From the NCBI RefSeq assembly GCF_018736085.1, contig NZ_CP076134.1, positions 4,040,501 to 4,104,500 of the forward strand: a DNA stretch of 64,000 nucleotides. Reading direction: 5' to 3'. Within the stretch, counting starts at the first letter, position 1. Each line of letters starts with the position of its first letter. Below the pieces are notes generated by a model. The model saw only the letters and a program-made list of their open reading frames with translations. It had not been told where the DNA came from and ran no database searches. This document shows, piece by piece, positions 4,819 through 24,768 of this stretch. This stretch comes from Bradyrhizobium sediminis (GTDB lineage: Bacteria > Pseudomonadota > Alphaproteobacteria > Rhizobiales > Xanthobacteraceae). A program made the translations under genes and the position numbers.

Positions 4819-5859
4819 TTAGAAATTGGTCGCTGACTTCTCATTCGGGATGCCGTCGATCGGGCATTCGTCAGTCCCTGCGGTCGGGCGGGTCATCGCC
4901 TCGACCATTTCGCGCGTGCCATCCGGATCGGCGATCCACTTCTTGTAGAAATCGTAGGGGCAGGCCGCGACGCCGCGCGCGCTTTCGCCGGAATTGATCA
5001 TGCCGGTATAGCCGCGATGGACCAGTTTGTAGAGATGGTTCTGCGACTGGCCGTTGCGGCGGAAATCGCGGATCAGATTCTTCGACAGCTGGGCATACTG
5101 GATGCCGTATTCCTCCTCGCCGGTCTCGCCCAGGGTACGGCCGTCGAAGCCGATGATCGCGGAGTGGCCGAAGTAGGAATAGACGCCGTCAAAGCCGGCT
5201 GCATTGGCGACCGCGACATAGACATTGTTGGCCCAGGCCATCGCCTTGGAAATCAGGACCTGCTGTTCCTTGGCCGGATACATGTAGCCCTGGCAGCGCA
5301 CGATAAGCTCGGCGCCCTTCATGGCACAGTCACGCCAGATTTCCGGAAAGTTGCCGTCGTCGCAGATGATCAGGCTGACCTTCAGGCCTTTCGGACCTTC
5401 GGAAACATAGGTGCAATTGCCGGGATACCAGCCTTCGATCGGCACCCACGGCATGATCTTGCGGTATTTCTGAACGATCTCGCCCCTGTCGTTCATCAGG
5501 ATCAGGGTGTTGTAAGGCGCCTTGTGCGGATGCTCCTCGTGGCGTTCGCCGGTGAGCGAGAACACGCCCCAGACCTTGGCCTTGCGGCAGGCTTCGGCGA
5601 AGACGTCGGTCTCGGGACCCGGGACCTGCGAGGCGGTCTCGTACATCTCTTTCGAGTCGTACATGATGCCGTGGGTCGAGTATTCCGGGAAGATCACCAG
5701 ATCCATGCCCGGCAGGCCGGTCTTCATGCCCACCACCATGTCGGCGATCTTGCGGGCGTTGTCGAGCACCTCGGCCCTGGTGTGCAGGCGCGGCATCTTG
5801 TAGTTGACGACGGCTACGCCGACCGTGTCGTTGCTGCTGGAAATGTCACCGTGAAGCAT
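4819..5859 (-). CDS. amiE: aliphatic amidase
   Basis: This 346-residue protein is a nitrilase-superfamily aliphatic amidase that hydrolyses short amides (acetamide, propionamide) to the acid and ammonia. The length and N-terminus ([20 protein letters not shown]) match the Pseudomonas AmiE type. The catalytic triad falls at the classical numbers: Glu59 in IFPEYS, Lys134 in QKYRKIMPW and Cys166 in LIICDDG. It is the last gene of the leftward run urtABCDE-fmdA-fmdB-amiE, which imports and hydrolyses amides. It starts at an ATG with AAGG upstream. The paralogous formamidase AmiF is an alternative, but FmdA upstream already covers formamide and the sequence looks closer to AmiE. Confidence 0.93.
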
Positions 5860-6327: not shown

Positions 6328-7557
6328 TCATTTGTCCGGTGACAGCGGCATCTGGATGTCGCCCTTGATGTGCTTGATCGGCCCCGCCGCCGACGGCATG
6401 ACGTCGAAGTCGAAGATCTCCGTCGGCAGCCACAGCGTCGCGCAGGCATTGGGCACGTCGACCACGCCGGAGATGTGGCCCTGGCACGGCGCGGTGCCCA
6501 GGATGGAATAGGCCTGCGCGCCGGAATAGCCGAACTTCTTGAGGTACTCGATCGCGTTCAGGCAGGCCTGCCGGTAGGCGATGTGGACGTCGAGGTAATG
6601 CTGCTTGCCAGCCTCGTCGACCGAAATGCCCTCGAAGATCAGGTAGTCCTTGTAGTTCGGCGTCACCGGCGACGGCTTGAACACGGGGTTCTTGATGCCG
6701 TATTTCGAGACGCCATCCTTGATGACGTCGACCTTGATGTGCAGCCAGCCCGCCATCTCGATGGCGCCGCAGAAGGTGATCTCGCCGTCGCCCTGGCTGA
6801 AATGCAGATCGCCCATCGAGAGCCCGCCGCCGGGCACATAGACCGGGAAGTAGACCTTCGATCCGCGCGACAGGTCCTTGATGTCGCAGTTGCCGCCATG
6901 CTCGCGAGGCGGCACCGTGCGTGCGCCTTCCGCCGCCGCCTTCGCCTTGGCATCGCCTTTCAGCCGGCCCATATGCGCGGTCGGGCCGAACGGCGGATTG
7001 GCCAGTCCCGGCACGCGGGTCGGATTGGTCGCAATCAGCGCGGTCTCGCGCTCGTTCCACGTCGCCAGCAATTTCGGATCGGGCAGACAGCCGATCAGGC
7101 CGGGATGGATGAGCCCTGCGAAATTCACGCCGGGAACGTGCCGGGATGAGGTGTACATGCCCTTGAAGTCCCAGATCGACTTCTGCGCCAGCGGAAAATG
7201 ATCGGTCAGGAAGCCGCCGCCGTTCTGCTTCGAGAAGAAGCCGTTGAACCCCCACAGGCTTTCCTTCATCGGGCCGACGTCGAGCAAGTCGACCACCAGG
7301 AGATCGCCGGGCTCGGCGCCCTTGACCCCGATCGGCCCGGACAGGAAGTGCACGATCGACAGATCGATGTCGCGCACGTCGTCGGCGGAATCGTTGTTCT
7401 TGATGAAGCCACCGGTCCAGTCGTAGGTCTCGACGATGAAATCGTCGCCCGGATTGACCCATGCCACCATCGGGACGTCGGGATGCCAGCGATTATGGAT
7501 CATGTCGTTGTCGTAGGCCGACTGCGTAAGATCGACCTTGATCAGTGTCTCTGGCAT
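6328..7557 (-). CDS. fmdA: formamidase (acetamidase/formamidase family)
   Basis: This 409-residue protein belongs to the FmdA/AmdA family, which is unrelated in fold to the nitrilase amidases and hydrolyses formamide to formate and ammonia. Recognisable segments are the N-terminal IKVDLTQSAYDNDMIHNRWHP, the WTGGFIKNN-D region, the repeated acidic/histidine stretch around DLHFSQGDGEITFCGAIEM and the C-terminal LGTAPCQGHISGVVDVPNA. The ATG at 7557 has AGGAGAG seven bases upstream. It follows urtE by 32 bp, so the transporter and enzyme are probably one transcription unit, as with fmdDEF and fmdA in Methylophilus. Confidence 0.92.
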   Translation of the reverse strand: MPETLIKVDLTQSAYDNDMIHNRWHPDVPMVAWVNPGDDFIVETYDWTGGFIKNNDSADDVRDIDLSIVHFLSGPIGVKGAEPGDLLVVDLLDVGPMKESLWGFNGFFSKQNGGGFLTDHFPLAQKSIWDFKGMYTSSRHVPGVNFAGLIHPGLIGCLPDPKLLATWNERETALIATNPTRVPGLANPPFGPTAHMGRLKGDAKAKAAAEGARTVPPREHGGNCDIKDLSRGSKVYFPVYVPGGGLSMGDLHFSQGDGEITFCGAIEMAGWLHIKVDVIKDGVSKYGIKNPVFKPSPVTPNYKDYLIFEGISVDEAGKQHYLDVHIAYRQACLNAIEYLKKFGYSGAQAYSILGTAPCQGHISGVVDVPNACATLWLPTEIFDFDVMPSAAGPIKHIKGDIQMPLSPDK

Positions 7558-7589: not shown

Positions 7590-8279
7590 TTAGACTGACA
7601 AAAATTTTGCGATCTGCCCGGCATCGATGCCGTCGCGCGCCTCATCGCGGACGATCTCGCCGTTCTCGATGACGAGCACGCGATCGGCGACGTCGAGCGC
7701 GAAGCTCAACACCTGCTCGGAGACGATGATCGAAAGGCCGCGGGTGTCACGAATCCGCTTCAGGGTGCGAGCCATCTCCTTGATGATCGACGGCTGTATG
7801 CCCTCGGTCGGTTCGTCCAGCAGCAACACCTTGGGTTTGGTTGCCAGCGCCCGCGCGATCGCGAGCTGCTGCTGCTGGCCGCCGGACAGATTCCCGCCGC
7901 GGCGATCTTTCATTTCCAGCAGCACCGGGAACAGCTCATAGAGGTCGCCCGGCACCTCTTTTTCGCCGGAGGCAACGAGGCCGGTCTCGATGTTTTCCTT
8001 GACCGTCATGGCCGAAAAGATCATGCGGCCCTGCGGTACATAGGCCAGTCCCTTCGCAACGCGCTCATAGCTTTTCAGCTTGCTGAGTTCGGAGCCTTCC
8101 ATGTTCACCGAGCCGCTCCTGGTCGGCACGATGCCCATCAACGACTTCATCAGCGTGGTCTTGCCCATGCCGTTGCGGCCCATGATCGCGACGATCTCGT
8201 TGGGCGCCACCGAGACGTTGAGGCCGTGCAGCACTTCACTCTGGCCGTAGGCGACATGCAGATCGGAGATAGCCAGCAT
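7590..8279 (-). CDS. urtE: urea/amide ABC transporter ATP-binding protein UrtE
   Basis: This is one of the two LivF/LivG-like ATPases of the urea/short-amide importer. The 229-residue protein has Walker A GRNGMGKTTL (from about residue 34), the signature LSGGQQQQ and Walker B VLLLDEPTEG, with the EGIQPSII stretch typical of UrtE rather than LivF. The start is the ATG at 8279, because AAGGAG lies 8 nt upstream; a TTG one codon earlier is also open. It is the fifth gene of urtABCDE, 24 bp after urtD. In the linked amide context the system could equally be FmdF-type; family ATPases do not discriminate the substrate. Confidence 0.9.
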   Translation of the reverse strand: MLAISDLHVAYGQSEVLHGLNVSVAPNEIVAIMGRNGMGKTTLMKSLMGIVPTRSGSVNMEGSELSKLKSYERVAKGLAYVPQGRMIFSAMTVKENIETGLVASGEKEVPGDLYELFPVLLEMKDRRGGNLSGGQQQQLAIARALATKPKVLLLDEPTEGIQPSIIKEMARTLKRIRDTRGLSIIVSEQVLSFALDVADRVLVIENGEIVRDEARDGIDAGQIAKFLSV

Positions 8280-8303
8280 CAAAATGCTCCTTAGTCTTGC
8301 GCG

Positions 8304-9059
<756 letters not shown>

Positions 9060-9069
9060 GGCTGTCTCC

Positions 9070-10224
9070 TCACTCGGCCGGCGCGCCGTCGGCGACTGAA
9101 TTGCCGTTCCAGCCCGCCGCCGCTCCGGACGCGGACTTGCGTGACGGAATCAGCCGGTTCAGCTGCGGCTGGATGTAGTCGCCCCAGATCCCGGCCAGAC
9201 CGTTCGGGAAAGCGAGAACCACGGCGATGAACAGGCCGCCGAGCCCAAACAGCCACAATTCGGGAAAGGATTCCGACAGGCTGGTCTTGGCGAAATTGAC
9301 CAGCAGCGTGCCGTAAATCGCGCCCAGGATGGAAAGTCGGCCGCCGACCGCCGTATAGATCACCATTTCGATCGAGGGCACGATGCCGACGAAGGATGGC
9401 GACATGAAACCCACGTTGAGCGCGAACATCGCGCCGCCGATCGCGGAGAATATCGCGGCGATGCAGAAGGCGAAGATCTTGAAATTCGCAACGCTGTAGC
9501 CGGAGAATCTGACGCGATCCTCCTTCTCACGCATTGCGACCAGGATGCGTCCGAGCTTGGAGTGGCGGATAGACTGCGCAATGAAGATACAACCGAACAG
9601 GCACGCCACTTCGAAGAAATAGAGTACGATCTTGGCGTGATCCGGCCGGATGTCCCAACCCTTCAGGGTCCGCAGGTCGGTCATCCCGTTGATGCCGCCG
9701 GTGTAGCCCTGCTGGCCGACGATCAGAATGGTGAGAATTGCCGCGACCGCCTGGGTGATGATGGCAAAGTAGGTGCCGCCGACGCGGCGCTTGAACATCG
9801 CCGCACCTATGATGAATGCGAAGAATGCCGGCACCAGAATAACGGCAGCAACAGTGAAGGTGAGGCTGTGGAACGGCTGCCAGAACAACGGCAGCTGCGT
9901 GATCTGATTCCAGTCCATGAAATCGGGGATGCCGGGCGTGGACTGGATCTTGGTGTTCTCGGGACTGGAAGCCTCCAGCTTGAGGAACATCGCCATGCAG
10001 TAGCCGCCAAGCCCGAAGAACACGCCCTGCCCGAGACTCAGGATGCCGCCATAGCCCCAGCAGATGACCAGCCCCAGCGCCACGAAGGCGTAAGTCAGAT
10101 ATTTGGCAACCAGATTGAGACGGAATACGTCGAGGCCGAGCGGCAGAACTACCACCAGGAGGACCGCGAGCAGGAGAATGCCGAGGAGTTCCGATCGATT
10201 AGCAAAGCGCGGATTGTCGGTCAT
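9070..10224 (-). CDS. urtC: urea/amide ABC transporter permease UrtC
   Basis: This 384-residue LivM-like inner-membrane permease has about ten hydrophobic helices. The family motif GYGGILSLGQGVFFGLGGY is near residue 75, and the long periplasmic insertion after the second or third helix (PGIPDFMDWNQITQLPLFW) is typical of UrtC and absent from LivM. The C-terminal region carries the EAA-like cytoplasmic loop around AMREKEDRVRFSGYSV. It forms the translocation pore with UrtB for urea or short amides. It is separated from urtB by 20 bp and from urtD by 10 bp on the same strand. Confidence 0.92.
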   Translation of the reverse strand: MTDNPRFANRSELLGILLLAVLLVVVLPLGLDVFRLNLVAKYLTYAFVALGLVICWGYGGILSLGQGVFFGLGGYCMAMFLKLEASSPENTKIQSTPGIPDFMDWNQITQLPLFWQPFHSLTFTVAAVILVPAFFAFIIGAAMFKRRVGGTYFAIITQAVAAILTILIVGQQGYTGGINGMTDLRTLKGWDIRPDHAKIVLYFFEVACLFGCIFIAQSIRHSKLGRILVAMREKEDRVRFSGYSVANFKIFAFCIAAIFSAIGGAMFALNVGFMSPSFVGIVPSIEMVIYTAVGGRLSILGAIYGTLLVNFAKTSLSESFPELWLFGLGGLFIAVVLAFPNGLAGIWGDYIQPQLNRLIPSRKSASGAAAGWNGNSVADGAPAE

Positions 10225-10244: not shown

Positions 10245-11171
10245 CTATTTGCGAACCTTGAGAGCGAAGAGACCTTGCGGCCGCAGCATCAGAATTCCGA
10301 CAACGGCGAGCAATGTGAGAACCTTGGCCATCGAGCCGGACATGAAGAATTCCAGGGTCGACTGCGTCTGCGAGATCGAGAAGGCCGAGGCGATAGTGCC
10401 GAGCAGACTCGCCGCACCGCCGAACACCACGACCAGGAACGTATCGACGATGTAGAGCTGGCCGGAGGTCGGGCCTGTCGAGCCAATCATGGTGAAGGCA
10501 CTGCCCGCGACCCCGGCGATGCCACAGCCAAGCGCGAAGGTGTAGCGATCGACTTTTTCGGTGTTGATGCCGACCGCGCCGGCCATCACGCGATTTTGCA
10601 CCACGGCGCGGACCTGGCGGCCCCAGCGCGACTTGTACATGATCCAGGCCACGCAGACCGTGATCAGCACGGTGAGGCACATCACGAAGATGCCGTTGAT
10701 CGGGACCTCGATGCTTTCGGTGACGCGCAGCGAACCCAGCATCCATTGCGGCAGTTCGACGCCGACTTCCCGCGCACCGAAAATCGAGCGATAGGCCTGC
10801 TGCAGCATCAGGCTGAGGCCCCAGGTCGCCAGCAGCGTATCCAGCGGGCGCTTGTACAGATGGCGGATCAGCGCCCATTCGACCAGCATACCGAGCGAGC
10901 CGGAGGCGACGAAGGCCAGCGCCATCGCGATAAAGAAGTATCCGGAAAACAGCGACGGCAAGTAGTGCTGAAAAGCGCTGGAGGTGAGCCAGGTGACATA
11001 GGCGCCGAGGATCATGAACTCGCCATGGGCCATGTTGATGACGCCCATCTGGCCGAAGATGATCGCAAGCCCAAGCGCCATCAGCACGTAGACGGAAAAC
11101 AGGATCAGGCCCGCGAAGCCCTGCATGACGAAAATGGAGCCCAAATCACCAATCGAGTAGTCGCCGAACAT
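10245..11171 (-). CDS. urtB: urea/amide ABC transporter permease UrtB
   Basis: This 308-residue LivH-like inner-membrane permease has eight or so hydrophobic helices, with LGLAIIFGQMGVINMAHGEFMILGAY near the start (the conserved Gly-Met-Asn-Ala-His-Gly permease motif) and the cytoplasmic coupling loop RWGRQVRAVVQNRVMAGAVGI. It partners UrtC. The protein is the short UrtB form without the large N-terminal periplasmic extension seen in some cyanobacteria. The ATG at 11171 has GGAGAAAC upstream. A strong hairpin separates it from urtA, the usual arrangement where binding protein must exceed permease. Confidence 0.92.
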   Translation of the reverse strand: MFGDYSIGDLGSIFVMQGFAGLILFSVYVLMALGLAIIFGQMGVINMAHGEFMILGAYVTWLTSSAFQHYLPSLFSGYFFIAMALAFVASGSLGMLVEWALIRHLYKRPLDTLLATWGLSLMLQQAYRSIFGAREVGVELPQWMLGSLRVTESIEVPINGIFVMCLTVLITVCVAWIMYKSRWGRQVRAVVQNRVMAGAVGINTEKVDRYTFALGCGIAGVAGSAFTMIGSTGPTSGQLYIVDTFLVVVFGGAASLLGTIASAFSISQTQSTLEFFMSGSMAKVLTLLAVVGILMLRPQGLFALKVRK

Positions 11172-11194
11172 CGATGTTTCTCCGTCGGGGAAGT

Positions 11195-11224
11195 CCCGCG
11201 TCGCGAGCAGGTTCGCGACGCGGG
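11195..11224 (-). promoter_or_regulatory. urtA-urtB intergenic hairpin
   Basis: A perfect 12-bp inverted repeat (CCCGCGTCGCGA and its complement) with a 6-nt loop lies in the 124-bp gap between the binding-protein gene urtA and the permease gene urtB. No T-run follows in the direction of transcription. It is likely an mRNA 3'-end stabiliser or partial terminator that raises urtA over urtBCDE expression. The palindrome is seen; the function is inferred. Confidence 0.7.
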
Positions 11225-11295
11225 GGTGTTGGGCGCGGATTGACGGTCCACGCCAGGGAGAGGCTTGGGAAAGCGCAGGATTTGTGCGCGAGCCC

Positions 11296-12555
11296 TTACT
11301 GATAGCCCTTGGGGAACGGATCCGGCTGGATCAGGTCGGCGGTCTCGAACACCACCTCGAATTGCCCGTCCAGCTTGGCTTTGCCCACGCGGGTCTTCGA
11401 CCACAGATGGTGGTTTTCGTGGATCCGGACATAGCCTTCCGGCGCACCCTTGAACTCGATGCCGGGCGAAGCCGCCGCAACCTTGTCGACGTCGAAGGAA
11501 CCCGCCTTCTCGACGGTGGCCTTCCACAGCCACGGGCCGAGATAGGCGGCCTGCGTCACGTCGCCGATCACCGTCTTCTCGCCCCACATCTTCTTGAACG
11601 CGGCAACAAACTTTTCGTTGTTCTCGTTCTTCAGCGACTGGAAGTACTTCATGCAGGCGTAGGCGCCGGCAATGTTCTCGCCGCCGATGCCGTCGATCTC
11701 GTCCTCGGTGACCGAGATGGTCAGAAGGGTCTGCTTCGACAGGTCGATGCCGGCCGCCTTGAGCTGCTTGTAGAACGCGACGTTGGATCCGCCGACGACG
11801 TCGGTGAAGATCACGTCGGGCTTGGTCAGCTTGATCTTGTTGATCACCGAGTTGAACTGGGTATTGCCGAGCGGGTAATATTCTTCACCAACGACTTTGC
11901 CCTTCAGCACGTTCTCGACATGCTTGCGCGCGATCTTGTTCGACGTGCGCGGCCAGATGTAGTCCGAGCCGATGAAGAAGAACGATTTCGCGCCCTTCTC
12001 CTTGGCGATCCAGTTCAGGCCGGCGAGGATCTGCTGCGTCGCTTCCTGGCCGGTGTAGATCACGTTCTTGGACTGCTCGAGGCCTTCGTAGAAGGTCGGG
12101 TAGTACAACATGCCGTTGTACTGCTCCATCACCGGCAGCACCGCCTTGCGCGACGCCGAGGTCCAGCAGCCCATGATCGAGGCCACCTTGTCGTTAACCA
12201 GCAACTTCTTGGCCTTCTCCGCGAAAGTCGGCCAGTCAGAGGCGCCGTCTTCCTGAATGATCTTTATCTTGCGGCCAAGCACACCACCCATGGCGTTGAT
12301 CTGCTCGATGGCGAGCTTTTCGGCCTGGATCGAGCCAGTTTCGGAGATCGCCATCGTGCCGGTGGCCGAATGCAGGATACCGACCGTAACTTCGGTATCG
12401 GTGACGGCCAGTCCCGTCGTGTTGACGGCCGAAGTCGCCGGCCCGGCGCCGAATGATACCCGCGGCAGCAGCGCCATGGCTGGCAGAGCTGCCGCTCCCA
12501 TCAGCAGTTTGCGGCGAAGCGGAGACTGCAGGCCCCGTTTGATCTCGTCTGACAT
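11296..12555 (-). CDS. urtA: urea/amide ABC transporter substrate-binding protein UrtA
   Basis: This 419-residue periplasmic binding protein is of the UrtA/FmdD type. The N-terminus has SPLRRKLLMGAAALPAMALL, a signal peptide with twin arginine, so Tat or Sec export. The mature part starts with the family hallmarks VTVGILHSATGTMAISETG and KLAIEQINAMGG, followed by a two-lobed type-I periplasmic fold (GSDYIWPRTSN, EYYPLGNTQFN). It binds urea or short amides (formamide, acetamide) and delivers them to UrtBC. The start is taken at ATG 12555; a GTG two codons upstream is also open. It heads the leftward operon and is divergent from the transporter-like kinase gene, which probably controls it. Confidence 0.92.
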   Translation of the reverse strand: MSDEIKRGLQSPLRRKLLMGAAALPAMALLPRVSFGAGPATSAVNTTGLAVTDTEVTVGILHSATGTMAISETGSIQAEKLAIEQINAMGGVLGRKIKIIQEDGASDWPTFAEKAKKLLVNDKVASIMGCWTSASRKAVLPVMEQYNGMLYYPTFYEGLEQSKNVIYTGQEATQQILAGLNWIAKEKGAKSFFFIGSDYIWPRTSNKIARKHVENVLKGKVVGEEYYPLGNTQFNSVINKIKLTKPDVIFTDVVGGSNVAFYKQLKAAGIDLSKQTLLTISVTEDEIDGIGGENIAGAYACMKYFQSLKNENNEKFVAAFKKMWGEKTVIGDVTQAAYLGPWLWKATVEKAGSFDVDKVAAASPGIEFKGAPEGYVRIHENHHLWSKTRVGKAKLDGQFEVVFETADLIQPDPFPKGYQ

Positions 12556-12614
12556 GAGCACCCCATTTTTGTTTGAGAACGCGCTTTTTGGTCAGGCGAG
12601 GATTGCTGAATTTG

Positions 12615-12655
12615 TGCGGTGCACAGATACGCAAGATCGCGTATATTGCACCGCA
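12615..12655. promoter_or_regulatory. 41-bp palindrome between urtA and the kinase gene
   Basis: The outer arms TGCGGTGCA and TGCACCGCA are perfect 9-bp complements; inner arms ATACGC and GCGTAT add 6 more pairs, separated by 3 and 2 unpaired bases, around a 6-bp centre. It lies 60 bp from the urtA ATG and 66 bp from the kinase GTG, in the middle of the divergent promoter region. A dimeric DNA-binding protein, most simply the LuxR-type regulator encoded next to the kinase, could bind here. The symmetry is seen; the binder is inferred. Confidence 0.6.
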
Positions 12656-12720: not shown

Positions 12721-15700
12721 GTGGCAGGGCGGCAGCGGATAGACCGCGTCAGGCGCCAATATAATCAGTGGGTTGCCAACCAGACGCTGGAAGACTACGC
12801 GCTGCGCTTCACGGCCAAGAGCGCGCGGCGCTGGTCCGCCGCCCGGGTCGCCAATACTGCGCTGGGCGCGATCTCGTTCCTGGCGCTGGAAGCGATCGGC
12901 GGCACCATCACCCTCAATTACGGCGTCACCAACGCCACCGCCGCGATTCTGGTGGTCAGCGTCATCATCTTCTGCTGCGGCCTGCCGATCGCCTACCACG
13001 CCGCCAAATGCGGCATCGACATCGACCTGCTGACGCGCGGCGCCGGCTTCGGTTACATCGGCTCGACCATCACCTCGCTGATCTACGCCTCCTTCACCTT
13101 CATCTTCTTCGCGATCGAAGCCGTCATCCTCGCCACCGCGCTCGAGCTTTGTCTCGGAATCCCGCGGCCCATCGGTTATCTCATCAGTGCGATCGTCATC
13201 ATCCCCCTGGTCACGCACGGCATCACGCTGATCAGCCGCTTCCAGCTGTGGACGCAGCCGGTCTGGTTCGTGCTCAATATCCTGCCGTTCGCCGCCATCG
13301 CTTTTGCCAGCCGGCACTCCTTCGTTGAGTGGACCAAATTCCCGGGCGAGCACGGCGATCCCAACGGCCACCTCGACCTGCTGTTGTTTGGAACCGCGGC
13401 CTCGGTCGTGTTCTCGCTGATCGCGCAGATCGGCGAGCAGGTTGACTTCCTGCGCTTCCTGCCGCGCGACCGGCGAAGTTCCAGGACATCGTGGTGGATC
13501 GCGATGCTCAGCGCCGGTCCCGGTTGGATCGTCGTCGGAGCCATCAAATTGCTGGCGGGATCGTTCCTCGCCTTTTTCGCACTCAGTCACGGCGTATCGG
13601 CCGAACATGCCGCTGAACCGGCGCACATGTATCTCGAGGCCTTTCATTACGTGCTGTCGCAGCCGGACCTCGCGCTGGCCCTGACCGGAACGTTCGTGGT
13701 GCTGGCGCAGATCAAGATCAACGTCACCAACGCCTATGCCGGTTCGATCGCCTGGTCGAATTTCTTTTCCCGCCTCACCCACAGCCATCCCGGCCGCGTG
13801 GTCTGGCTGGTGTTCAACGTGCTGGTCGCGCTGCTCTTGATGGAGATCGGCGTCTACAAGGCGCTGGAGCAGACGCTGGCGCTGTACTCCAACGTCGCCA
13901 TTGCCTGGGTCGGCGCGCTGGTCGCCGATCTCGTGGTCAACAAGCCGCTCGGCCTGCGGCCGCAGCAGATGGAGTTCAAGCGCGCGCATCTCTACGACAT
14001 CAATCCGGTCGGCGTCGGCGCCATGAGCATCGCCACCATCGTCTCGATCAGCGCGTTCTACGGCCTGTTCGGACCGACGGCGAAAGCGCTGGCGTCGTTC
14101 GTCGCGCTGGCGGTTGCCTTCGTCACAGCTCCCCTGATCGCCTGGGCCACCGACGGCAGGTATTACATCGCGCGCAAGCCGAAGCGGAGCTGGCAGAACA
14201 TCGAAGCGATCCAGTGCTGTATTTGCGAGCATACCTTCGAGCCGGAGGACATGGCCTCCTGCCCCGCCTATGCCGGCCCGATCTGCTCGCTGTGCTGTTC
14301 GCTCGACGCACGCTGCCATGATCTCTGCAAGCCGCATGCGCGGATCCAGGCACAGGTCTCGGAGACGCTGGGCAAGCTGCTGCCGCAGCCGATCTATGCC
14401 CGGATCAATTCGCAGCTCGGACACTATCTCGGCGTGTTCGCGGTTTCCGCCGGATTGGTCGGACTGACGCTCGCCCTGATCTATCTGCAGACCTCGGCGA
14501 CGGTGCACGCCGACAATCTGCAGCTATCCGAGGTGCTGTGGAAAGTGTTCTTTGCGCTGACCATCATCATCGGCGTGGTCGCCTGGCTGTTCGTGCTGGC
14601 GCAGCAGAGCCGGCGCGCGGCGGAAGCCGAAACAAGGCGGCAGACCACGCTCTTGATCCAGGAGATCGACGCGCACAAGCGCACCGACGCCGAGCTGCAG
14701 CGCGCCAAGGAAGTCGCCGAATCGGCCAACCTTGCGAAAAGCCGCTATGTCGTCGGCCTCAGCCACGAACTGCGCTCGCCGCTGAATGCGATCTCCGGCT
14801 ACGCCCAGTTGCTGGAACAGGATTCGAGCCTTTTGCCCAAGCCGCGCGATCAGGTACGGGTGGTCCGCCGCAGCGCCGATCACCTGTCCGGGCTGATCGA
14901 CGGCATTCTCGACATCTCCAAGATCGAGGCCGGCCGGCTGTATCTGTCGCGGGACGAAGTTCGCCTCAGCGAATTTCTCGACCAGCTGGTCGGCATGTTC
15001 CGCCTGCAGGCCGCCGCCAAGGGCATCGACTTCGTGTTCAAGCGGCCGACGGTGCTGCCCTTCGTGGTGTTTGCCGACGAGAAGCGCCTGCGCCAGATTC
15101 TGATCAACCTGTTGTCGAACGCCATCAAGTTCACGCAAGTGGGCAGCGTGCAGTTCGTTGTGCATTACCGCAGCCCGGTCGCGGAGTTCGAAGTGATCGA
15201 CACCGGCCCCGGCATCCAGGCTTCCGACCTCGATCGCATCTTTGCGCCGTTCGAGCGCGGCGCGCTCGGCGTTTCGCAGCCGCAGACCGGCACTGGCCTG
15301 GGCTTGACGATCAGCCGCTTGCTCGCGGGCGTGATGGGCGGCGACATCCGGGTCACGAGCACGGTCGGCAAGGGCTCTGCCTTCGGCGTCAAATTGCTGT
15401 TGTCGGAAGTCACCAACCCGACCCGGATCGCACCGGTCGACGCGCCGATCTTCGGCTATCACGGCCCGCGCAAGACCATCCTTATCACCGACGACGATCC
15501 GACCCAGCGCGATCTGTTGCGCGAGGTGCTGACGCCGCTCGGCTTCATCCTGCTGAGCGCGCCGGACGGACCCGCCTGTCTCACGCTCGCCCAGCATTGC
15601 CGGCCCGATCTGTTCCTGCTGGATATCTCAATGGCCGGCATGGACGGCTGGACGGTAGCGGAAACGCTGCGCGCCACCGGCCATCACCAGGCCCGCATCC

Positions 15701-16092
15701 TCATGGTTTCCGCCAGCGCGCTGGAGGCGCACGGCACGCCCTTGGCACAGCCGTTTCATGACGGCTATCTGATGAAGCCGATCGATATTCCAAAGCTGCT
15801 GGAATTGATCCGGCAGTTGCTCAAGATCGAATGGCAATATGAGACCGATCAGGTTCCGCTTTCCTGCTGGCAGCCGGACTCGGGATCGCGGCCGCCGCTG
15901 CGGCACATCGAGGAGCTCATCAGCCTCGGACAGATGGGCTACATCCGGGCCATTCAGGTCAAGCTCGCCGAAATCGGCGCCGACCACCCCGAGCATGCCG
16001 ATTTCGTCACCCAGATGCGCGCGCTGATCGATCGCTTCGACCTCGATCAGTACATGGCCACATTGAAGACATTGCACAGCTATGACCACTGA
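12721..16092 (+). CDS. hybrid histidine kinase with NCS1-permease-like sensor half
   Basis: A 1123-residue membrane protein. Residues about 1-480 look like a nucleobase:cation symporter-1 (cytosine/allantoin permease) with 10-12 helices (GAISFLALEAIGGTITLNYG; GEQVDFLRFLPR; INVTNAYAGSIAWSNF). Residues 499-536 hold nine cysteines (positions 499, 500, 502, 514, 522, 525, 526, 532, 536), like a zinc-binding knuckle. Two more helices (about 568-627) and a coiled linker lead to HisKA (His682 in LSHELRSP), HATPase (N-box INLLSNAIKF, DTGPGI, GTGLGL) and a receiver with Asp968 in FLLDISMAGMDG. GTG 12721 is chosen because AGGAG lies 7 nt upstream. It overlaps the regulator gene by 11 bp and is divergent from urtABCDE-fmdAB-amiE, so it probably senses amides, urea or related compounds through a permease-derived domain, as CbrA does with an SLC5 domain. 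Confidence 0.9.
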   Translation: MAGRQRIDRVRRQYNQWVANQTLEDYALRFTAKSARRWSAARVANTALGAISFLALEAIGGTITLNYGVTNATAAILVVSVIIFCCGLPIAYHAAKCGIDIDLLTRGAGFGYIGSTITSLIYASFTFIFFAIEAVILATALELCLGIPRPIGYLISAIVIIPLVTHGITLISRFQLWTQPVWFVLNILPFAAIAFASRHSFVEWTKFPGEHGDPNGHLDLLLFGTAASVVFSLIAQIGEQVDFLRFLPRDRRSSRTSWWIAMLSAGPGWIVVGAIKLLAGSFLAFFALSHGVSAEHAAEPAHMYLEAFHYVLSQPDLALALTGTFVVLAQIKINVTNAYAGSIAWSNFFSRLTHSHPGRVVWLVFNVLVALLLMEIGVYKALEQTLALYSNVAIAWVGALVADLVVNKPLGLRPQQMEFKRAHLYDINPVGVGAMSIATIVSISAFYGLFGPTAKALASFVALAVAFVTAPLIAWATDGRYYIARKPKRSWQNIEAIQCCICEHTFEPEDMASCPAYAGPICSLCCSLDARCHDLCKPHARIQAQVSETLGKLLPQPIYARINSQLGHYLGVFAVSAGLVGLTLALIYLQTSATVHADNLQLSEVLWKVFFALTIIIGVVAWLFVLAQQSRRAAEAETRRQTTLLIQEIDAHKRTDAELQRAKEVAESANLAKSRYVVGLSHELRSPLNAISGYAQLLEQDSSLLPKPRDQVRVVRRSADHLSGLIDGILDISKIEAGRLYLSRDEVRLSEFLDQLVGMFRLQAAAKGIDFVFKRPTVLPFVVFADEKRLRQILINLLSNAIKFTQVGSVQFVVHYRSPVAEFEVIDTGPGIQASDLDRIFAPFERGALGVSQPQTGTGLGLTISRLLAGVMGGDIRVTSTVGKGSAFGVKLLLSEVTNPTRIAPVDAPIFGYHGPRKTILITDDDPTQRDLLREVLTPLGFILLSAPDGPACLTLAQHCRPDLFLLDISMAGMDGWTVAETLRATGHHQARILMVSASALEAHGTPLAQPFHDGYLMKPIDIPKLLELIRQLLKIEWQYETDQVPLSCWQPDSGSRPPLRHIEELISLGQMGYIRAIQVKLAEIGADHPEHADFVTQMRALIDRFDLDQYMATLKTLHSYDH

Positions 16093-17025: not shown

Positions 17026-19770
17026 CTAATTGGCCGCCGCCAACTGACGTTGTTCGGGATCGGCGGAGCCGGCCTGCGCGATCAGCCGTTTCAGTTCCGG
17101 AATGCATGAGCCGCAATTGGTGCCGGCCTTCAGCTTGGCGCCGATCTCGGCGGCGGTGCGCGCCCCGCCAGCGATGCTGTCGCAGATCGTGGTGCGGCCG
17201 ACGCCGAAGCAGGCGCAAACGATCGGTCCGGCGCTGGCCAGCCCGTCGGTCGATTTGCCCGACAGCAGCATGCGGCGCTGCTCGTCGTCGAGTCTGTCGG
17301 CCGCGAACAGCTGCTTGACGACGTTCCAGTCGCCGGCGTCCTGCGCCGGCCCGATGAACAGGCAGGCTTCGATACGGTCGGCGGCAAAGCACGCGGCGCG
17401 GTAAACGCCGCCGCCGAAATCCTTGTATTCGGCGAGATCGTCGCCGGCCACCGACTTCAGCCAGGACTGCCATCCCCTGAGATCGGCATTGTCGGCGAGC
17501 AGATAGCCGTAGCCGCCGGGCACCGCCACCCGCGCCCACCAGGCATGATCGGGCAACGCGAGCGGCGTCCGCGACAGCGCAAAGCCCCGGAATACATATT
17601 CGTAAGGCGCGATCGACGCCGGCGTTGCCTTGTTCTCGGGCTGGCCGGAGAATGGATCGGTGAACGGCGCCACCAGCGCGCCGACGCGCGAGCCGGTCGC
17701 GGTCGCCTCGCTCCAGTGGATCGGCGCGAACAGCATGCCGCGCTGCTGCCGTTCGCTGACGACGACCTTGAGTGTGCATTGCCCGTGATCGGTGGTGACG
17801 CGTGCGAAGCTGCCGTCGGTCACGCCGAATTTCAGCGCGTCGTCGGGATGAACCTCGACGAACGGCTCCGGCAGATGCTGGCCCAGCCGCGGACTGAGGC
17901 CGCTGCGGGTCATGGTGTGCCATTGATCCCTGATGCGGCCGGTATTCAGCCGCAGCGGCCGGCCGGCGGTGGTCTCCGTGCGCAGCGCGGGGATCTCCGG
18001 CGCAATGAAACGCGCCTTGAAGTCGCTTGAGAAGAAGCCGCCATTGGCAAAAAAGCGCGGCTGTGGCTGGCTGTTGTCCAGGCGCGTCGGCCACTGCACC
18101 GGCGCCAGCGCATCGAAGGCTTGGTCCGACAGCGACTGCAAGGCGCCGATGTCGAAATCGCGGCCGCCATTGTTCTCGAACGCCGACAGTGCGGCGTGCT
18201 CGCGGAAAACGTCGGCAGCGGAATTGAAATCGAACGCCGCGCCGAAGCCGAGCCGTTTCGCCACTTCGCTGAGGATCCACCAGTCCGGCCTGGCCTCGCC
18301 CGCCGGAGCGAGGAAGGCGCGCTGCCGCGAGATCCGGCGTTCCGAATTGGTCACCGTTCCGGACTTCTCGCCCCAGGCCTGCGCCGGCAGCAGCACATGC
18401 GCTCCGGCGTTCACGGTGTCGTTGGAACGCACATTCTCCGAAACCACGAACAGCTCGAGTTTCTTCAGCGCGGCGCGGGCGGCGTCGGCGTCCGGCAACG
18501 ACACCGCCGGATTGGTGCCGATCACCCACAGCGCCTTGATCTCGCCGCGCGCGATCGCCTCGAACATCTGGACCGCCTTCAGTCCCTCATGGGTGGCGAT
18601 GCGCGGGGCTTTCCAGAACCGGCGCACGCGGTCGATGTCGGGCGGCGAAAAGCCCATATGGGCGGCGAGCTGGTTGGCGAGCCCGCCGACCTCGCGGCCG
18701 CCCATCGCATTGGGTTGCCCGGTCAGCGAGAACGGCGACGCGCCCGGCTTGCCGATCCGTCCCGTCGCGAGATGGCAGTTGATGATGGCATTGACCTTGT
18801 CGGTGCCCTGCGCCGACTGGTTGACGCCCTGCGAGTACAGCGTCACCACGCGCGGGGTCGCGGCGAAGATCCGGAAGAAATCCGCCACATCCTGTTCGGA
18901 AAGCCCGGTCGCCAGGGCCGTCGCGCCGACGCTGCCGGCGATGCTGCGTGCCCGCGCCAGCGCCTCGTCGAAACCGCTGGTGTATCGTTCCATGTAATCT
19001 GAATCGAGCGCGCCGCTGTCGGCAAGATGCACCAGCAGGCCGGAGAACAGCGCCGTGTCGGTGCCGGGCTTCAGGCCCAGAAACAGCTCGGCATCGCCGG
19101 CCGTATCGGTCCGCCGCGGGTCGATCACGACCATGCGGGCGCCGCGCTTCTGCTTGTTGGCGAGCATGCGCTGGTACAGAACCGGATGGCACCATGCCGC
19201 GTTGGAGCCGACCAGCACCAGGAGGTCGGCCTGTTCGAGATCCTCATAGCAGCCGGGCACGGTATCGGCCCCGAACGCGCGGCGGTGACCGGCGACCGAG
19301 GAGGACATGCACAGCCGCGAATTGGTATCGACATTGGCGCTGCCGATGAATCCCTTCATCAGCTTGTTGGCGACGTAGTAATCCTCGGTCAGGAGCTGCC
19401 CGGAAAGATAGAACGCGACAGCGCCGGGTCCATCGCGCTTGACGATGTGCGCGAAACGATTCGCGACATGGTCGAGCGCGTCGCTCCAGGCCACCTGCTC
19501 CATGGTGCCCTTGCTGCAGCGGATCATCGGATAGAGCAGCCGGTCTTCGAGCCCGAGGGTTTCGCCGAGCGCCGAGCCTTTCGAGCACAGCCGGCCGAAA
19601 TTGGCGGGATGTTCGGGATCGCCCGAGATCGCCGCACCGCCGCGGCCATCGGGCGTCGCCAGCACGCCGCAGCCGACGCCGCAATAGGCGCAGGTGGTGC
19701 TGATAGCGCCAACGGGTCCGCGCGGAGCGCGGCCCGATGATAAACTCAGTGTGGGATCGACGGCCGTCAT
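17026..19770 (-). CDS. nasC: assimilatory nitrate reductase catalytic subunit (NasC/NasA type)
   Basis: A 914-residue molybdopterin oxidoreductase that reduces nitrate to nitrite in the cytoplasm. The N-terminal [4Fe-4S] ligands are Cys27, Cys30, Cys34 and Cys62 (CAYCGVGCG, LCSKG). The molybdopterin-binding core and dinucleotide-binding domain follow (VKVVSERQQRGMLFAPIHWSE-like region), and a C-terminal BFD-like [2Fe-2S] domain carries CACFGVGRTT and CGSCIPEL. No Tat signal is present, as expected for an assimilatory enzyme. The start is taken as ATG 19770, 13 bp after the flavoprotein stop; an upstream in-frame start at 19803 would overlap it. In Bradyrhizobium the same order, globin, Flp, NasC, forms a nitrate-assimilation and NO-detoxification unit. 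Confidence 0.92.
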   Translation of the reverse strand: MTAVDPTLSLSSGRAPRGPVGAISTTCAYCGVGCGVLATPDGRGGAAISGDPEHPANFGRLCSKGSALGETLGLEDRLLYPMIRCSKGTMEQVAWSDALDHVANRFAHIVKRDGPGAVAFYLSGQLLTEDYYVANKLMKGFIGSANVDTNSRLCMSSSVAGHRRAFGADTVPGCYEDLEQADLLVLVGSNAAWCHPVLYQRMLANKQKRGARMVVIDPRRTDTAGDAELFLGLKPGTDTALFSGLLVHLADSGALDSDYMERYTSGFDEALARARSIAGSVGATALATGLSEQDVADFFRIFAATPRVVTLYSQGVNQSAQGTDKVNAIINCHLATGRIGKPGASPFSLTGQPNAMGGREVGGLANQLAAHMGFSPPDIDRVRRFWKAPRIATHEGLKAVQMFEAIARGEIKALWVIGTNPAVSLPDADAARAALKKLELFVVSENVRSNDTVNAGAHVLLPAQAWGEKSGTVTNSERRISRQRAFLAPAGEARPDWWILSEVAKRLGFGAAFDFNSAADVFREHAALSAFENNGGRDFDIGALQSLSDQAFDALAPVQWPTRLDNSQPQPRFFANGGFFSSDFKARFIAPEIPALRTETTAGRPLRLNTGRIRDQWHTMTRSGLSPRLGQHLPEPFVEVHPDDALKFGVTDGSFARVTTDHGQCTLKVVVSERQQRGMLFAPIHWSEATATGSRVGALVAPFTDPFSGQPENKATPASIAPYEYVFRGFALSRTPLALPDHAWWARVAVPGGYGYLLADNADLRGWQSWLKSVAGDDLAEYKDFGGGVYRAACFAADRIEACLFIGPAQDAGDWNVVKQLFAADRLDDEQRRMLLSGKSTDGLASAGPIVCACFGVGRTTICDSIAGGARTAAEIGAKLKAGTNCGSCIPELKRLIAQAGSADPEQRQLAAAN

Positions 19771-19783
19771 GTCAGCAACCGGG

Positions 19784-21001
19784 TCACGCCGCCTCCGAGG
19801 CAAGCGCCAGCGAGCGCCCGAACATCATGTCGGCACGGATGCCCGCGATGGGTTTGCGGTCCCGGATCAGTTCGAGATACCAGAGCGCATCTCCGACGTC
19901 GCCGACCAGCACCGCGCCGGTGAGCCGGCCCGCCGAGATCACCAGCTTCTTGTAGGTGCCGCGCCTGAGGTCCTTGAGCACGATGGCTTCGCTGCCGTCG
20001 GCGCCCATGAAATCGCCGGCCGAGAACACGCTGACGCCGGAGACCTTGAGGTTGGTAGCCACCACGCTGCCGTGATAGCTGGCCGCCCGGCCCGCAAGAT
20101 GCTGCGCCAGCACGCGGGCCTGCTCGTAGGCCGGCTCGACCAGGCCATAGCAAATGCCACGATGCTCGGCGCATTCGCCGATCGCGAACACATCCGCCGC
20201 GCCGGTCTGCAGATGATCGTCGACGACGACGCCGCGATTGACCGATATGCCGGCGTCCTTCGCCAGCGCAACGTTCGGCCGGATACCGGCCGCGAAGATC
20301 ACCGCGTCGGCATCGATCCGGCGGCCGTCCGCCAGTTCGACGCCCTCGACCTGGGTCTCGCCGTGGATACGCGCGGTACTGGCATTGAGCAGGATCTCGA
20401 TGCCTTTGCGCTCGACCAGCGACTTCAATAATTCCGCCGCCGGCGCATCGAGCTGGCGCTCCATCAGCCGATCCATCAGATGAACCAGGGTCACCGGGGC
20501 GCCGGCCTTGGCGAGGCCGTAGGCCGCCTCGAGTCCGAGCAATCCGCCGCCGACCACGACGACGCGTTTCCTGCGGGCCGCCAGCGTCAGCAACAGATCG
20601 ACGTCGCGGCTGTCGCGAAAGGTATGGACGCCGGCGAGTGCGGCGCCGGGCACGTTGAGCCGCAGCGGCGTCGAGCCGGTGGCGAGCACCAGCTTCGAAA
20701 ACGCGATACTCTCGTCGCCCGCGATCTTGAGTTCGCGGCGGCCGACGTCGATCCCGGTGGCGACGCAGCCATATTGCAGGGTGACGCCGCGGTTGCGCCA
20801 CCACGAAGCCGGCCGGAGCTCGATGTCGTGTGAGGCGATCTCGCCCGCGAGCACCGACGACAGCAGCACGCGGTTATAGGCGAGCCGCGGCTCGTCGCCG
20901 ATCACGGCAATGGCGTAACGTCCGAGTGCGGCCTTCGCCAGTTCGTCGACCAGACGCGCGGCGGCCATTCCATTGCCGACGATGACCAGCGGTTCGCTCA
21001 C
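19784..21001 (-). CDS. flp: NAD(P)H:FAD oxidoreductase (Flp type), nitrate reductase partner
   Basis: A 405-residue two-dinucleotide-binding flavoprotein: FAD motif VIVGNGMAAARL at the start, NAD(P) motif VVVVGGGLLGLEAA near residue 150, and the second FAD motif ADVFAIGECAEH near residue 285. It resembles the N-terminal flavin part of NirB and the NasB reductases, and corresponds in position to Bradyrhizobium Flp, which passes electrons from NAD(P)H to NasC and the globin. GTG at 21001 is the start, with AAGGA 6 nt upstream. It lies 9 bp from the globin and 13 bp from nasC, so this is one operon. A ferredoxin reductase role elsewhere is possible but less likely. Confidence 0.88.
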   Translation of the reverse strand: MSEPLVIVGNGMAAARLVDELAKAALGRYAIAVIGDEPRLAYNRVLLSSVLAGEIASHDIELRPASWWRNRGVTLQYGCVATGIDVGRRELKIAGDESIAFSKLVLATGSTPLRLNVPGAALAGVHTFRDSRDVDLLLTLAARRKRVVVVGGGLLGLEAAYGLAKAGAPVTLVHLMDRLMERQLDAPAAELLKSLVERKGIEILLNASTARIHGETQVEGVELADGRRIDADAVIFAAGIRPNVALAKDAGISVNRGVVVDDHLQTGAADVFAIGECAEHRGICYGLVEPAYEQARVLAQHLAGRAASYHGSVVATNLKVSGVSVFSAGDFMGADGSEAIVLKDLRRGTYKKLVISAGRLTGAVLVGDVGDALWYLELIRDRKPIAGIRADMMFGRSLALASEAA

Positions 21002-21010
21002 GAGATATCC

Positions 21011-21436
21011 TTACTCGGCGGCTTGGGCGCTGCCGTAGGCTTCCGAGATCATGTAACCGGACAGCGTCCCGTAGGCCGCGGTCCATGCATCGGCGACTTC
21101 AGGCGTCCACGCGGCGCCGAGTCCCTTTTCCAGCGTCCACAGCAGGGCGGCGCCGACCACGGGATAGTGCTCCGCCCTGGCGCCGTAGCCGACATGGCAT
21201 TTGGCGAGAGCGCTCGCGGCCGGCAAGATCGACTGCAGATTGCCGAGGCCGTTCACGACGGCGGCCAGCATCATCATCAGCTTCTTGCGCTGCTCGGTCA
21301 TATCGGCGGGAAACATCGCCTTCACTGCCGGCGCGATCTCGAACAGGCGGTCGTAGAACAACACCGCCGCCTGCTCCGATATCGGGACTACCTTGGCGAA
21401 ACTCTCCTGGACCAGCCTGATTTGCGTCGAATTCAT
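21011..21436 (-). CDS. bjgb: single-domain haemoglobin (Bjgb type)
   Basis: This 141-residue globin resembles the haem domain of flavohaemoglobins but lacks the reductase. The proximal histidine is His81 in AKCHVGYGA and the distal B10 tyrosine is Tyr28 in FYDRLF; Glu or Lys partners follow in EHYPVVGAALL. Such globins bind NO and oxygen and protect the cytoplasm from NO made during nitrate and nitrite metabolism, taking electrons from the adjacent flavoprotein. The start is ATG 21436, with GAGGAG upstream; the frame extends 18 codons further but without a good site. It is encoded between nrtABC and flp-nasC on the same strand. Confidence 0.9.
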   Translation of the reverse strand: MNSTQIRLVQESFAKVVPISEQAAVLFYDRLFEIAPAVKAMFPADMTEQRKKLMMMLAAVVNGLGNLQSILPAASALAKCHVGYGARAEHYPVVGAALLWTLEKGLGAAWTPEVADAWTAAYGTLSGYMISEAYGSAQAAE

Positions 21437-21525
21437 CTCAGCTCTCCTCGCGTGTTGAAACAGAGCCTGTTGGTCGCGAACGGGTAACATTGGTTCAACG
21501 TCATGATGTCGGAGCCGTTAAGCGC

Positions 21526-22317
21526 TTACGCCGCCTCGACAAACCGATGCCGCTCGTAGAGGAATTCAAGCACGCGCTGCCGGCATTTCAGGTAGCCGGC
21601 ATTGGTGGCGAGCTCGAGCCGCTTGCGCGGCCGCGCCAGCGGCACCTCGAGCACCTCGCCGATCCGCGCGCTCGGCCCGTTGGTCATCATCACGATGCGG
21701 TCCGACAGCAGCACCGCCTCGTCGACATCGTGCGTGATCATCAGGATGGTGTTGCCGAGCTTCTGGTGCAGCGCCATCACCGAATCCTGCAGATGCGCGC
21801 GGGTCAGCGCGTCGAGCGCGCCGAACGGCTCGTCGAGCAGCAGCACCTTCGGCTCCATCGCCAGCGCCCGCGCGATGCCGACGCGCTGCTTCATGCCGCC
21901 GGAAATTTCCGCAGGCCGCTTGTCCCTGGCGTGCGTCATCTGCACCAGGTTGAGATTGTGCATGGTCCAGGCGTCGCGCTCCTCGCGGGTCTTGCTCGAT
22001 GCGAACACCTTGTCGACGCCGAGCCTCACGTTTTCATAGACCGTGAGCCAGGGCAGCAGGCTGTGGTTCTGGAACACCACCGCGCGATCCGGACCCGGCG
22101 AGTTGACCTCGCGGTTTTCCAAGAGCACGCCGCCCATCGTGGCCGAGGTCAGGCCTGCCACGATGTTGAGCAGGGTCGACTTGCCGCAGCCGGAATGTCC
22201 GATGATCGAGACGTATTCGCCCTTGTCGATCGTCAGGCTGATGTCCTTCAGCACCTCGGTCGAGGAGTTGCCGCGGGTGAAGACCTTGTCGATGTGATCG
22301 AGCTTCAGATAGGTCAT
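21526..22317 (-). CDS. nrtC: nitrate ABC transporter ATP-binding protein
   Basis: This 263-residue ATPase is of the nitrate/sulfonate/taurine family, with Walker [11 protein letters not shown] at about residue 40, signature ISGGMKQRVGIARAL, Walker B VLLLDEPFGALDALTR and switch His in LMITHDVDEAV. The N-terminus LKLDHIDKVFTRG matches NrtC/NrtD subunits. It is the stand-alone ATPase form, without the extra binding-protein-like domain found in cyanobacterial NrtC. It energises NrtB in the inner membrane. The gene follows nrtB by 11 bp and precedes the globin by 89 bp. An unrelated open frame that runs on through nrtB is not part of it. Confidence 0.92.
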   Translation of the reverse strand: MTYLKLDHIDKVFTRGNSSTEVLKDISLTIDKGEYVSIIGHSGCGKSTLLNIVAGLTSATMGGVLLENREVNSPGPDRAVVFQNHSLLPWLTVYENVRLGVDKVFASSKTREERDAWTMHNLNLVQMTHARDKRPAEISGGMKQRVGIARALAMEPKVLLLDEPFGALDALTRAHLQDSVMALHQKLGNTILMITHDVDEAVLLSDRIVMMTNGPSARIGEVLEVPLARPRKRLELATNAGYLKCRQRVLEFLYERHRFVEAA

Positions 22318-22328
22318 GACGGTTCCCT

Positions 22329-23240: not shown

Positions 23241-23267
23241 CGGGAGTGTGTCTCCGTGTTCGATGGG

Positions 23268-23293
23268 CGGGCCGCACGCAGGCGTGCGGCCCG
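23268..23293 (-). promoter_or_regulatory. nrtA-nrtB intergenic hairpin
   Basis: A perfect 12-bp inverted repeat (CGGGCCGCACGC and its complement) with a 2-nt loop lies directly after the nrtA stop, before nrtB. No U-tract follows. It probably stabilises the nrtA message or partly terminates transcription, as inferred for the comparable hairpin after urtA. Confidence 0.7.
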
Positions 23294-23300
23294 GTTTGGA

Positions 23301-24617: not shown

Positions 24618-24768
24618 GGGTGCAGGCGTCCTTTGTGAGTATGGCCGTCCGTCCGGTGTCACCGCGCTGAGCGCATAGAGGCACGCTCTGGGGAGGCCCC
24701 AGTCCGGCGGTGTCACAATTCGGATGATTGATCTCGAGGGACGGCTTCAATGGCGTCGGCACAAGCTA

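Follow-up and report, generated by a model that had tools for sequence, protein, structure and literature searches.

We analysed a 64,000-nucleotide stretch of the Bradyrhizobium sediminis genome (contig NZ_CP076134.1, positions 4,040,501 to 4,104,500; the window from here on), which carries a gene for a hybrid sensor histidine kinase beside an operon for the uptake and hydrolysis of urea and amides. The N-terminal half of the kinase has the fold of an NCS1 transporter. We consider it quite likely that this NCS1-type transceptor kinase acts as the receptor in a two-component system that is widespread and responds to urea and short-chain amides. The initial annotation had proposed an NCS1-derived sensor kinase linked to amide and urea use; its sequence observations are confirmed and its interpretation holds in part, with the NCS1 identity and the urea/amide link well supported.

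Domain order and the transporter half

The described order of parts was borne out by Pfam, hydropathy and fold comparison: an NCS1 half, a cluster of nine cysteines, two further helices, HisKA, HATPase and a receiver (Table 1). The further helices are visible as hydropathy peaks at residues 566-584 and 609-627 and as helices 565-594 and 599-649 of the AlphaFold model. The set expected of a hybrid histidine kinase two-component system is complete, with a HisKA domain and its histidine, an HATPase, a receiver and an adjoining regulator gene. Open reading frames and family scans also agree with the description of a LuxR-type regulator gene that overlaps the kinase gene (its start, at 16082, lies within the 3' end) and of a divergent eight-gene urea/amide operon. 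The kinase has a single full-length match in the 5.55-Mb genome, its own copy.

Whether the N-terminal half belongs to NCS1 was examined by family scan, profile and fold. A direct match to PF02133, which the initial annotation had led us to look for, did not appear for residues 1-480 even at E up to 10, but the NCS1 identity itself was upheld by profile and by fold. With hhalign, comparison to a profile of 25 stand-alone permeases gave a probability of 100 and E 3.5e-42 over 442 columns; the seed of that profile (from locus L165) is itself PF02133-positive at 3.6e-9. In the AlphaFold model the 12-helix fold is closest to CodB and Mhp1, which make up the four top matches among solved structures, and CodB and two Mhp1 rows score over 2 Z higher than any SLC5-type row listed, which favours NCS1. 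It was only the fold comparison that reached CodB and Mhp1, because sequence searches of the PDB (with residues 1-480, L165 and both profiles) had no NCS1 entry among the matches listed. The NCBIfam scan of the NCS1 half gave no match there among the best 25 of 142 families. By fold and profile, residues 1-485 are an NCS1-type transporter domain, and we do not call it a PF02133 member. PF02133 was silent on the window protein and on every other family member that we scanned, the kinase-less relatives L198 and L213 among them (nothing at E 0.01), which points to an annotation gap for this branch of NCS1.

We placed the substrate pocket by alignment to E. coli CodB at about 20% identity and assigned Mhp1 positions by counting from the tryptophan. 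Conservation was counted over 47 kinase sequences from all of the linkage classes given below. The substrate is reported to be contacted by an asparagine of transmembrane helix 8 (TM8), N280 in CodB and N318 in Mhp1 (PMC9379551, PMC4195764). The suggested comparison with the Mhp1 site came out divided: this asparagine is kept as N334, but the stacking tryptophan of TM3 (CodB W108, Mhp1 W117) is replaced by Phe129 (F in 41/47, L in 6/47). The position of CodB Q105 is T126, that of Mhp1 Q121 is E133, and Lys332 sits at CodB position 278; T126, E133, K332, N334 and N337 are identical in 47/47. In the 25 stand-alone permeases, too, E133 has an invariant counterpart and position 332 an invariant basic residue (Arg), so neither feature is peculiar to the fusion. 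The motif QIGEQ (236-240), which adjoins TM6 and precedes a conserved DxxRF, is missing from the stand-alone permeases. The CodB sodium ligand N275 aligns with A329 in the window kinase and with Ser in 39/47 members. From these positions we infer a pocket that is conserved but altered relative to CodB and Mhp1.

The cysteine cluster that follows is predicted to bind zinc, probably as a two-zinc treble-clef module. Eight of its nine cysteines in the window kinase are invariant in the 47 sequences. A fold search for treble-clef zinc fingers (FYVE/RING/ZZ) gave Z scores too low to tell either way, and Pfam on the linker (residues 481-640) gave nothing above cut-off.

Gene linkage and the predicted operator

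To follow the kinase beyond the window we used a sample of 398 Pseudomonadota genomes (the phylum sample), in which it is present in 53 genomes at 58 places, full or partial. We fetched 55 loci, with about 8-10 kb per side where the contig allowed, leaving out the window, G224 and G236. Genes in loci rich in guanine and cytosine (GC) were picked by codon-position GC, and urease clusters are visible that way. Genes for urtA, fmdA, amiE or urease lie near the kinase in 54 of the 55 loci, and a match to the regulator stands in the equivalent place in 53. At the sole exception, L176, the sequence ends 366 bp upstream of the kinase, and a 66-residue fragment of urtA is visible there. The linkage takes several forms: urt genes plus fmdA and/or amiE; urt genes of another branch (36-41% identity to the window UrtA), in some cases with urease alongside; a urease cluster occupying the place of urt/fmdA, with no urt in the stretch examined (L150, L156, L162, L163); and fmdA without urtA (L121, L161). 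We dropped the idea that loci without urt have unrelated neighbours, since L146, L150, L156, L162, L163 and L164 carry urease genes. Among close relatives (80 loci, mostly Bradyrhizobium) 78 are linked, and the other two (L007, L079) are cut by contig ends.

Co-occurrence in the 398 genomes agrees with this. The kinase and FmdA are both found in 39 genomes, the kinase only in 14, FmdA only in one (G114) and neither in 344, so that 39/40 FmdA-bearing genomes have the kinase (Fisher p 5e-41, ignoring relatedness). The single sampled genome of the same genus without the kinase (G365) is also without FmdA. Urease is present in 49/53 kinase genomes, a count that comes without a base rate across the 398 and is not an association test. 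The remaining four comprise two genomes with FmdA (G054, G193) and two incomplete assemblies without it (G224, G236).

The window has a palindrome, TACGCAAGATCGCGTA, 67 bp before urtA. It is the single exact match in the window and one of 3 sites in the genome, where a control pattern has 41 matches. With one mismatch allowed, the window alone gives 3 palindromes against 2.3 expected, no more than chance; the case for the palindrome rests on conservation. A search for spaced inverted 4-mers in 46 diverse upstream regions found TACG-8-CGTA in 21 of them (mean of 0.12 in shuffles), and the palindrome is kept in 79/80 close-relative loci and in 9/9 same-group loci of the phylum sample. Across the 46 loci (0.90 Mb in total) the pattern TACGYNNNNNNRCGTA matches 39 times, compared with 0.85 in shuffles, and 36 of these matches lie no more than 300 bp upstream of urtA (30) or fmdA (6), in 28 loci. 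This pattern was derived from the same 46 loci; a second set of 14 loci is independent and has 7 matches against 0.3 in shuffles, of which 4 are within 300 bp upstream of urtA or fmdA. The other three lie 305 bp before a kinase-less copy in L198, before the L206 kinase, and elsewhere in L202.

The palindrome is kept even where urtA is not beside the kinase (L131, L140, L147). On Sinorhizobium pSymB it stands immediately before urtA, 1.7 kb from the kinase. In G518 and G583 it is on a contig other than the kinase's, 80 and 109 bp ahead of the gene that opens the urt operon; this gene is porin-like by eye and has no Pfam match. Of four genomes checked, the palindrome is absent in G426, and in G446 within the roughly 0.5 kb before urtA that was examined. 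As for the regulators, the recognition helix is SPATVKKHLE in the urease-linked L156, L162, L163 and L164 and SPATAKKHLE in L150, and other regulators that were picked up have an Arg in this helix, mostly as SPRTVxKHLE. L164 has the palindrome at a distant urtA. We believe that TACGYNNNNNNRCGTA is likely the operator of the partner LuxR-type regulator, a prediction made from conservation and placement. The other two sites in the genome, one before a gene resembling ribose-phosphate pyrophosphokinase and one in a repeat-rich stretch (both by eye), are taken as chance, and the second UrtA (4973007) and the urease (4964795) of this genome have no exact site nearby.

There are results that weigh against a general urea/amide system, and the second sample is the main evidence against a strict linkage rule. 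This sample, 274 genomes of another class searched with L165, gave 14 further kinases. Seven of them show the linkage, and an eighth is placed about 10 kb away from urtA; two more sit at loci cut short by contig ends, and the remaining four (L197, L200, L208, L209) are unlinked. Among the six genomes in which the kinase is unlinked or cut, urease is present in five, UrtA elsewhere in four and an FmdA match in none; searches of G527 for UrtA, urease and FmdA found no match. The initial annotation held that linkage elsewhere to unrelated operons would count against its reading. This was found in part, at the four of 14 second-sample kinases without such a gene in the stretch examined. Beyond the window the linkage is well supported by the first sample, the FmdA co-occurrence and the palindrome at urtA/fmdA, and it is weaker in the second sample. 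The palindrome also has gaps: 18/46 first-sample loci are without it before urtA or fmdA (7/46 have no such gene scored), the urease-only loci (L150, L156, L162, L163) are without it, and a search of ureA in the urease-linked loci for a common palindrome gave no convincing shared site. L123, L129, L132, L148 and L152 have the common helix and no palindrome, so the pairing of helix and palindrome is suggestive and not strict. Finally, an Arthrobacter plasmid (L213:7935-9611) carries a protein 43% identical to the NCS1 half, with no kinase and with the cysteine cluster not kept, and its neighbours resemble biotin synthesis genes rather than amide use genes (names by eye).

Proposed mechanism and alternatives

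We propose that urea or an amide would bind the former NCS1 substrate pocket, as the gene linkage and the conserved, altered pocket suggest. A bundle/hash movement would then pass through the cysteine cluster and the two extra helices to the HisKA dimer, a route suggested by domain order and by invariance. Phosphate would move from H682 to the kinase's receiver, to the LuxR-type regulator, or to both, judging from the domains and the gene pairing. The regulator would then bind TACGYNNNNNNRCGTA before urtA (and before fmdA if this has its own promoter) and switch on uptake and hydrolysis; here the palindrome and its placement are observed, and from them we infer the binding. Urea appears to be the commonest denominator of the ligand candidates, since there are urease-only loci and most of the kinase genomes that lack fmdA do have urease. 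For the window system formamide or acetamide may be more relevant because the operon holds a formamidase and an amidase and no urease (a urease and the second UrtA are 0.9 Mb away).

We weighed three other explanations. In the first, the kinase is a true transceptor, whose NCS1 domain imports urea or amides while signalling, so that the kinase reads the transport cycle. CbrA, which is reported to transport histidine (PMC7096432), is a precedent, and in L198, where the stretch examined has no urt, the kinase-less copy stands as first gene ahead of fmdA and amiE, as if it were the transporter. Still, we regard import by the kinase as rather unlikely. A urtA gene is already at 45/55 first-sample kinase loci, hence probably an ABC importer, and KsAmt5 is described as keeping the transporter fold while its ammonium translocation is not efficient (PMC8534201). 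In addition, the aromatic clamp residue is changed, and the stretch adjoining TM6 is one that the stand-alone relatives do not have.

In the second, the NCS1 domain is a membrane scaffold and the signal comes from nitrogen status, from ammonium or from flux through the Urt transporter. The system does control nitrogen supply, and kinases coupled to transporters are known, for example BceS (PMC8534201). We find this improbable, since the invariance of E133, K332, N334 and N337 goes beyond what a scaffold needs and the four urease-only loci have no urt gene in the stretch examined, leaving nothing there to sense. Slightly more improbable still is a domain that remains a receptor of nucleobases, allantoin or hydantoin, with the urea/amide genes as the downstream part of purine and pyrimidine nitrogen use: most characterised NCS1 proteins are reported to take nitrogen heterocycles (PMC13390362), but urea/amide genes are at 54/55 loci, the stacking Trp is Phe or Leu, the NCS1 protein MetT is reported to take acyclic metformin, so acyclic ligands are possible, and, as a weaker point, no purine gene was noticed in the loci read gene by gene, where purine genes were not searched for.

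Our preferred reading is thus a receptor for urea and short-chain amides. We offer only tentatively a wider version that could well hold but towards which we do not quite lean: a receptor family with the NCS1 fold, rebuilt from nucleobase transporters, that would sense urea, formamide or acetamide directly, would couple to kinases through a two-zinc module, would be a general urea/amide on-switch across Pseudomonadota, and would also have been spread by conjugative plasmids.

Relatives, neighbouring genes and known systems

The operon on the opposite strand, urtA-urtB-urtC-urtD-urtE-fmdA-fmdB-amiE, begins 160 bp from the kinase gene (Table 1). We take the small open reading frame in it to be fmdB. 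Beside the regulator gene, on the other strand (17026-24716), lies a nitrate/nitrite-like set (molybdopterin reductase, NirB-like FAD protein, ABC transporter). Three of its proteins were scanned and reached no NCBIfam cut-off; at nine same-group loci, the full order is present in two and a partial one in one.

Table 1. Features of the kinase locus, in window positions.
Feature	Position	Strand	Basis
Hybrid sensor histidine kinase, 1123 aa, whole gene	12721..16092	+	Open reading frame, translation, Pfam domains
NCS1-type transporter domain, about residues 25-485, 12 hydrophobic peaks	12793..14175	+	
Cysteine cluster, residues 499-536, eight invariant cysteines; predicted zinc-binding module	14215..14328	+	
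Two extra predicted membrane helices, residues 566-627	14416..14601	+	
HisKA domain, H682	14737..14934	+	Pfam E 1.4e-16
HATPase_c domain	15076..15402	+	Pfam E 1.1e-23
Kinase's own receiver domain	15478..15810	+	Pfam E 9e-19
Response regulator, 307 aa, receiver and LuxR/GerE helix-turn-helix	16082..17005	+	Pfam Response_reg 7.2e-28, GerE 9.4e-19
Palindrome TACGCAAGATCGCGTA, proposed operator of the LuxR-type regulator	12628..12643	.	Conserved upstream of urtA/fmdA elsewhere
urtA, ABC substrate-binding protein	11296..12561	-	TIGR03407 540 bits, cut-off 492.75
urtB, permease	10245..11171	-	TIGR03409 408 bits
urtC, permease	9070..10224	-	68% to annotated urtC of CP023937.1
urtD, ATPase	8304..9059	-	71% to annotated urtD of CP023937.1
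urtE, ATPase	7590..8282	-	TIGR03410 331 bits
fmdA, formamidase	6328..7557	-	NF045496 766 bits
fmdB-like small cysteine-containing protein, 112 aa	5899..6237	-	Open reading frame only
amiE, aliphatic amidase	4819..5859	-	NF009802 719 bits

There are cases where the modules of the kinase are swapped or missing. L121, L161 and a Paracoccus plasmid stretch (L214) have the sensor half joined to a kinase half without a receiver, with other regulators, and fmdA is nearby in 3/3, directly divergent in L214 and about 2 kb past the kinase gene in L121 and L161. The sensor halves of L121 and L161 are 56-57% identical to that of the window kinase and their kinase halves 24-27%. The kinase-less copy in L198 (G647, 10267-11946) has 559 residues, ends after the cysteine cluster, diverges from a kinase of the normal form and has fmdA and amiE after it; it is a candidate amide permease. 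At L178:9857-11713 we observed a 618-residue kinase with the two helices and a remnant of the cysteine stretch and with no NCS1 domain, convergent with a LuxR-type regulator gene. Judging from these five loci the parts are exchangeable, and in the small number of examples the amide link travels with the sensor half.

Within the phylum sample, the closest PF02133-positive relative that we found is L165. After its stand-alone NCS1 permease come genes for a double CN-hydrolase, a Peripla_BP_5 protein and an AmiR_N-ANTAR protein (L165:7949-12984), in what looks like a cluster for amide uptake and use. Plasmid records that match residues 1-640 number 532, of which 342 are from Klebsiella. One of these, CP023937.1 (conjugative by PLSDB typing), has amiF-urtEDCBA divergent from a kinase and regulator, with the palindrome between. 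The entire urea/amide module with kinase and regulator (L212:3909-14264) is near heat-shock genes on this Klebsiella plasmid.

The initial annotation saw a distinct sensor architecture here. It is distinct from that of CbrA but not rare, as at least 8000 proteins match residues 1-640 at E <= 1e-3. Genes of this kind now go by no more than 'ATP-binding protein' or, in part of the plasmid records, 'ArcB', and one annotation source names some as signal transduction histidine kinase/purine-cytosine permease-like protein. This widespread NCS1 transceptor kinase family is apparently unstudied: in the open-licence PMC literature we found no study of an NCS1-kinase, or of the kinase of urt/fmdA loci, among the matches listed. 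PMC2907700 (Table 4) and PMC13296017 list the genes beside urt and urease, and the portions of both available to us leave the permease part uncommented. The finding would add another transporter family used as a transceptor, with thousands of proteins, a defined gene set and a predicted 16-bp operator, and would give a likely function to genes with such uninformative names. The system probably signals when to use urea and amides as nitrogen sources. It opens to testing the sensing of external urea and amides by a membrane receptor, the route by which a LeuT-fold movement reaches a kinase, and the question whether transport can be lost by a transporter that still senses.

Among known systems, CbrA, which PMC13022988 calls a rare transceptor, is described as binding and transporting histidine (PMC7096432, PMC13022988). 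Like CbrA, CrbS and RpuS, as these are described, the window kinase has a complete transporter domain before a histidine kinase, a small linker module and a partner regulator. Theirs are an SLC5 domain and a four-helix STAC module, whereas here there are an NCS1 domain, an eight-cysteine cluster and two helices; the targets of CrbS and RpuS are acetate and pyruvate genes, and the window kinase adjoins urea/amide genes. KsAmt5 likewise uses a transporter domain as the nitrogen-source receptor of a kinase, but it has an Amt fold, comes from an anammox bacterium, and is described without a cysteine cluster in the relevant parts of PMC5764959 and PMC8534201. With CodB and Mhp1 the kinase shares the fold and length of its N-terminal domain and the TM8 asparagine (PMC9379551, PMC4195764). 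It differs from them in the pocket region by Phe129, T126, E133 and Lys332. AmiC-AmiR also controls amide hydrolysis, and an AmiR_N-ANTAR gene stands beside the nearest stand-alone permease (L165). AmiC belongs to the periplasmic-type binding proteins and AmiR acts as an antiterminator, whereas the window system is a membrane kinase with a LuxR regulator. Our best reading is that NCS1 would be the third transporter family in transceptor kinases, after SLC5 (CbrA) and Amt (KsAmt5).

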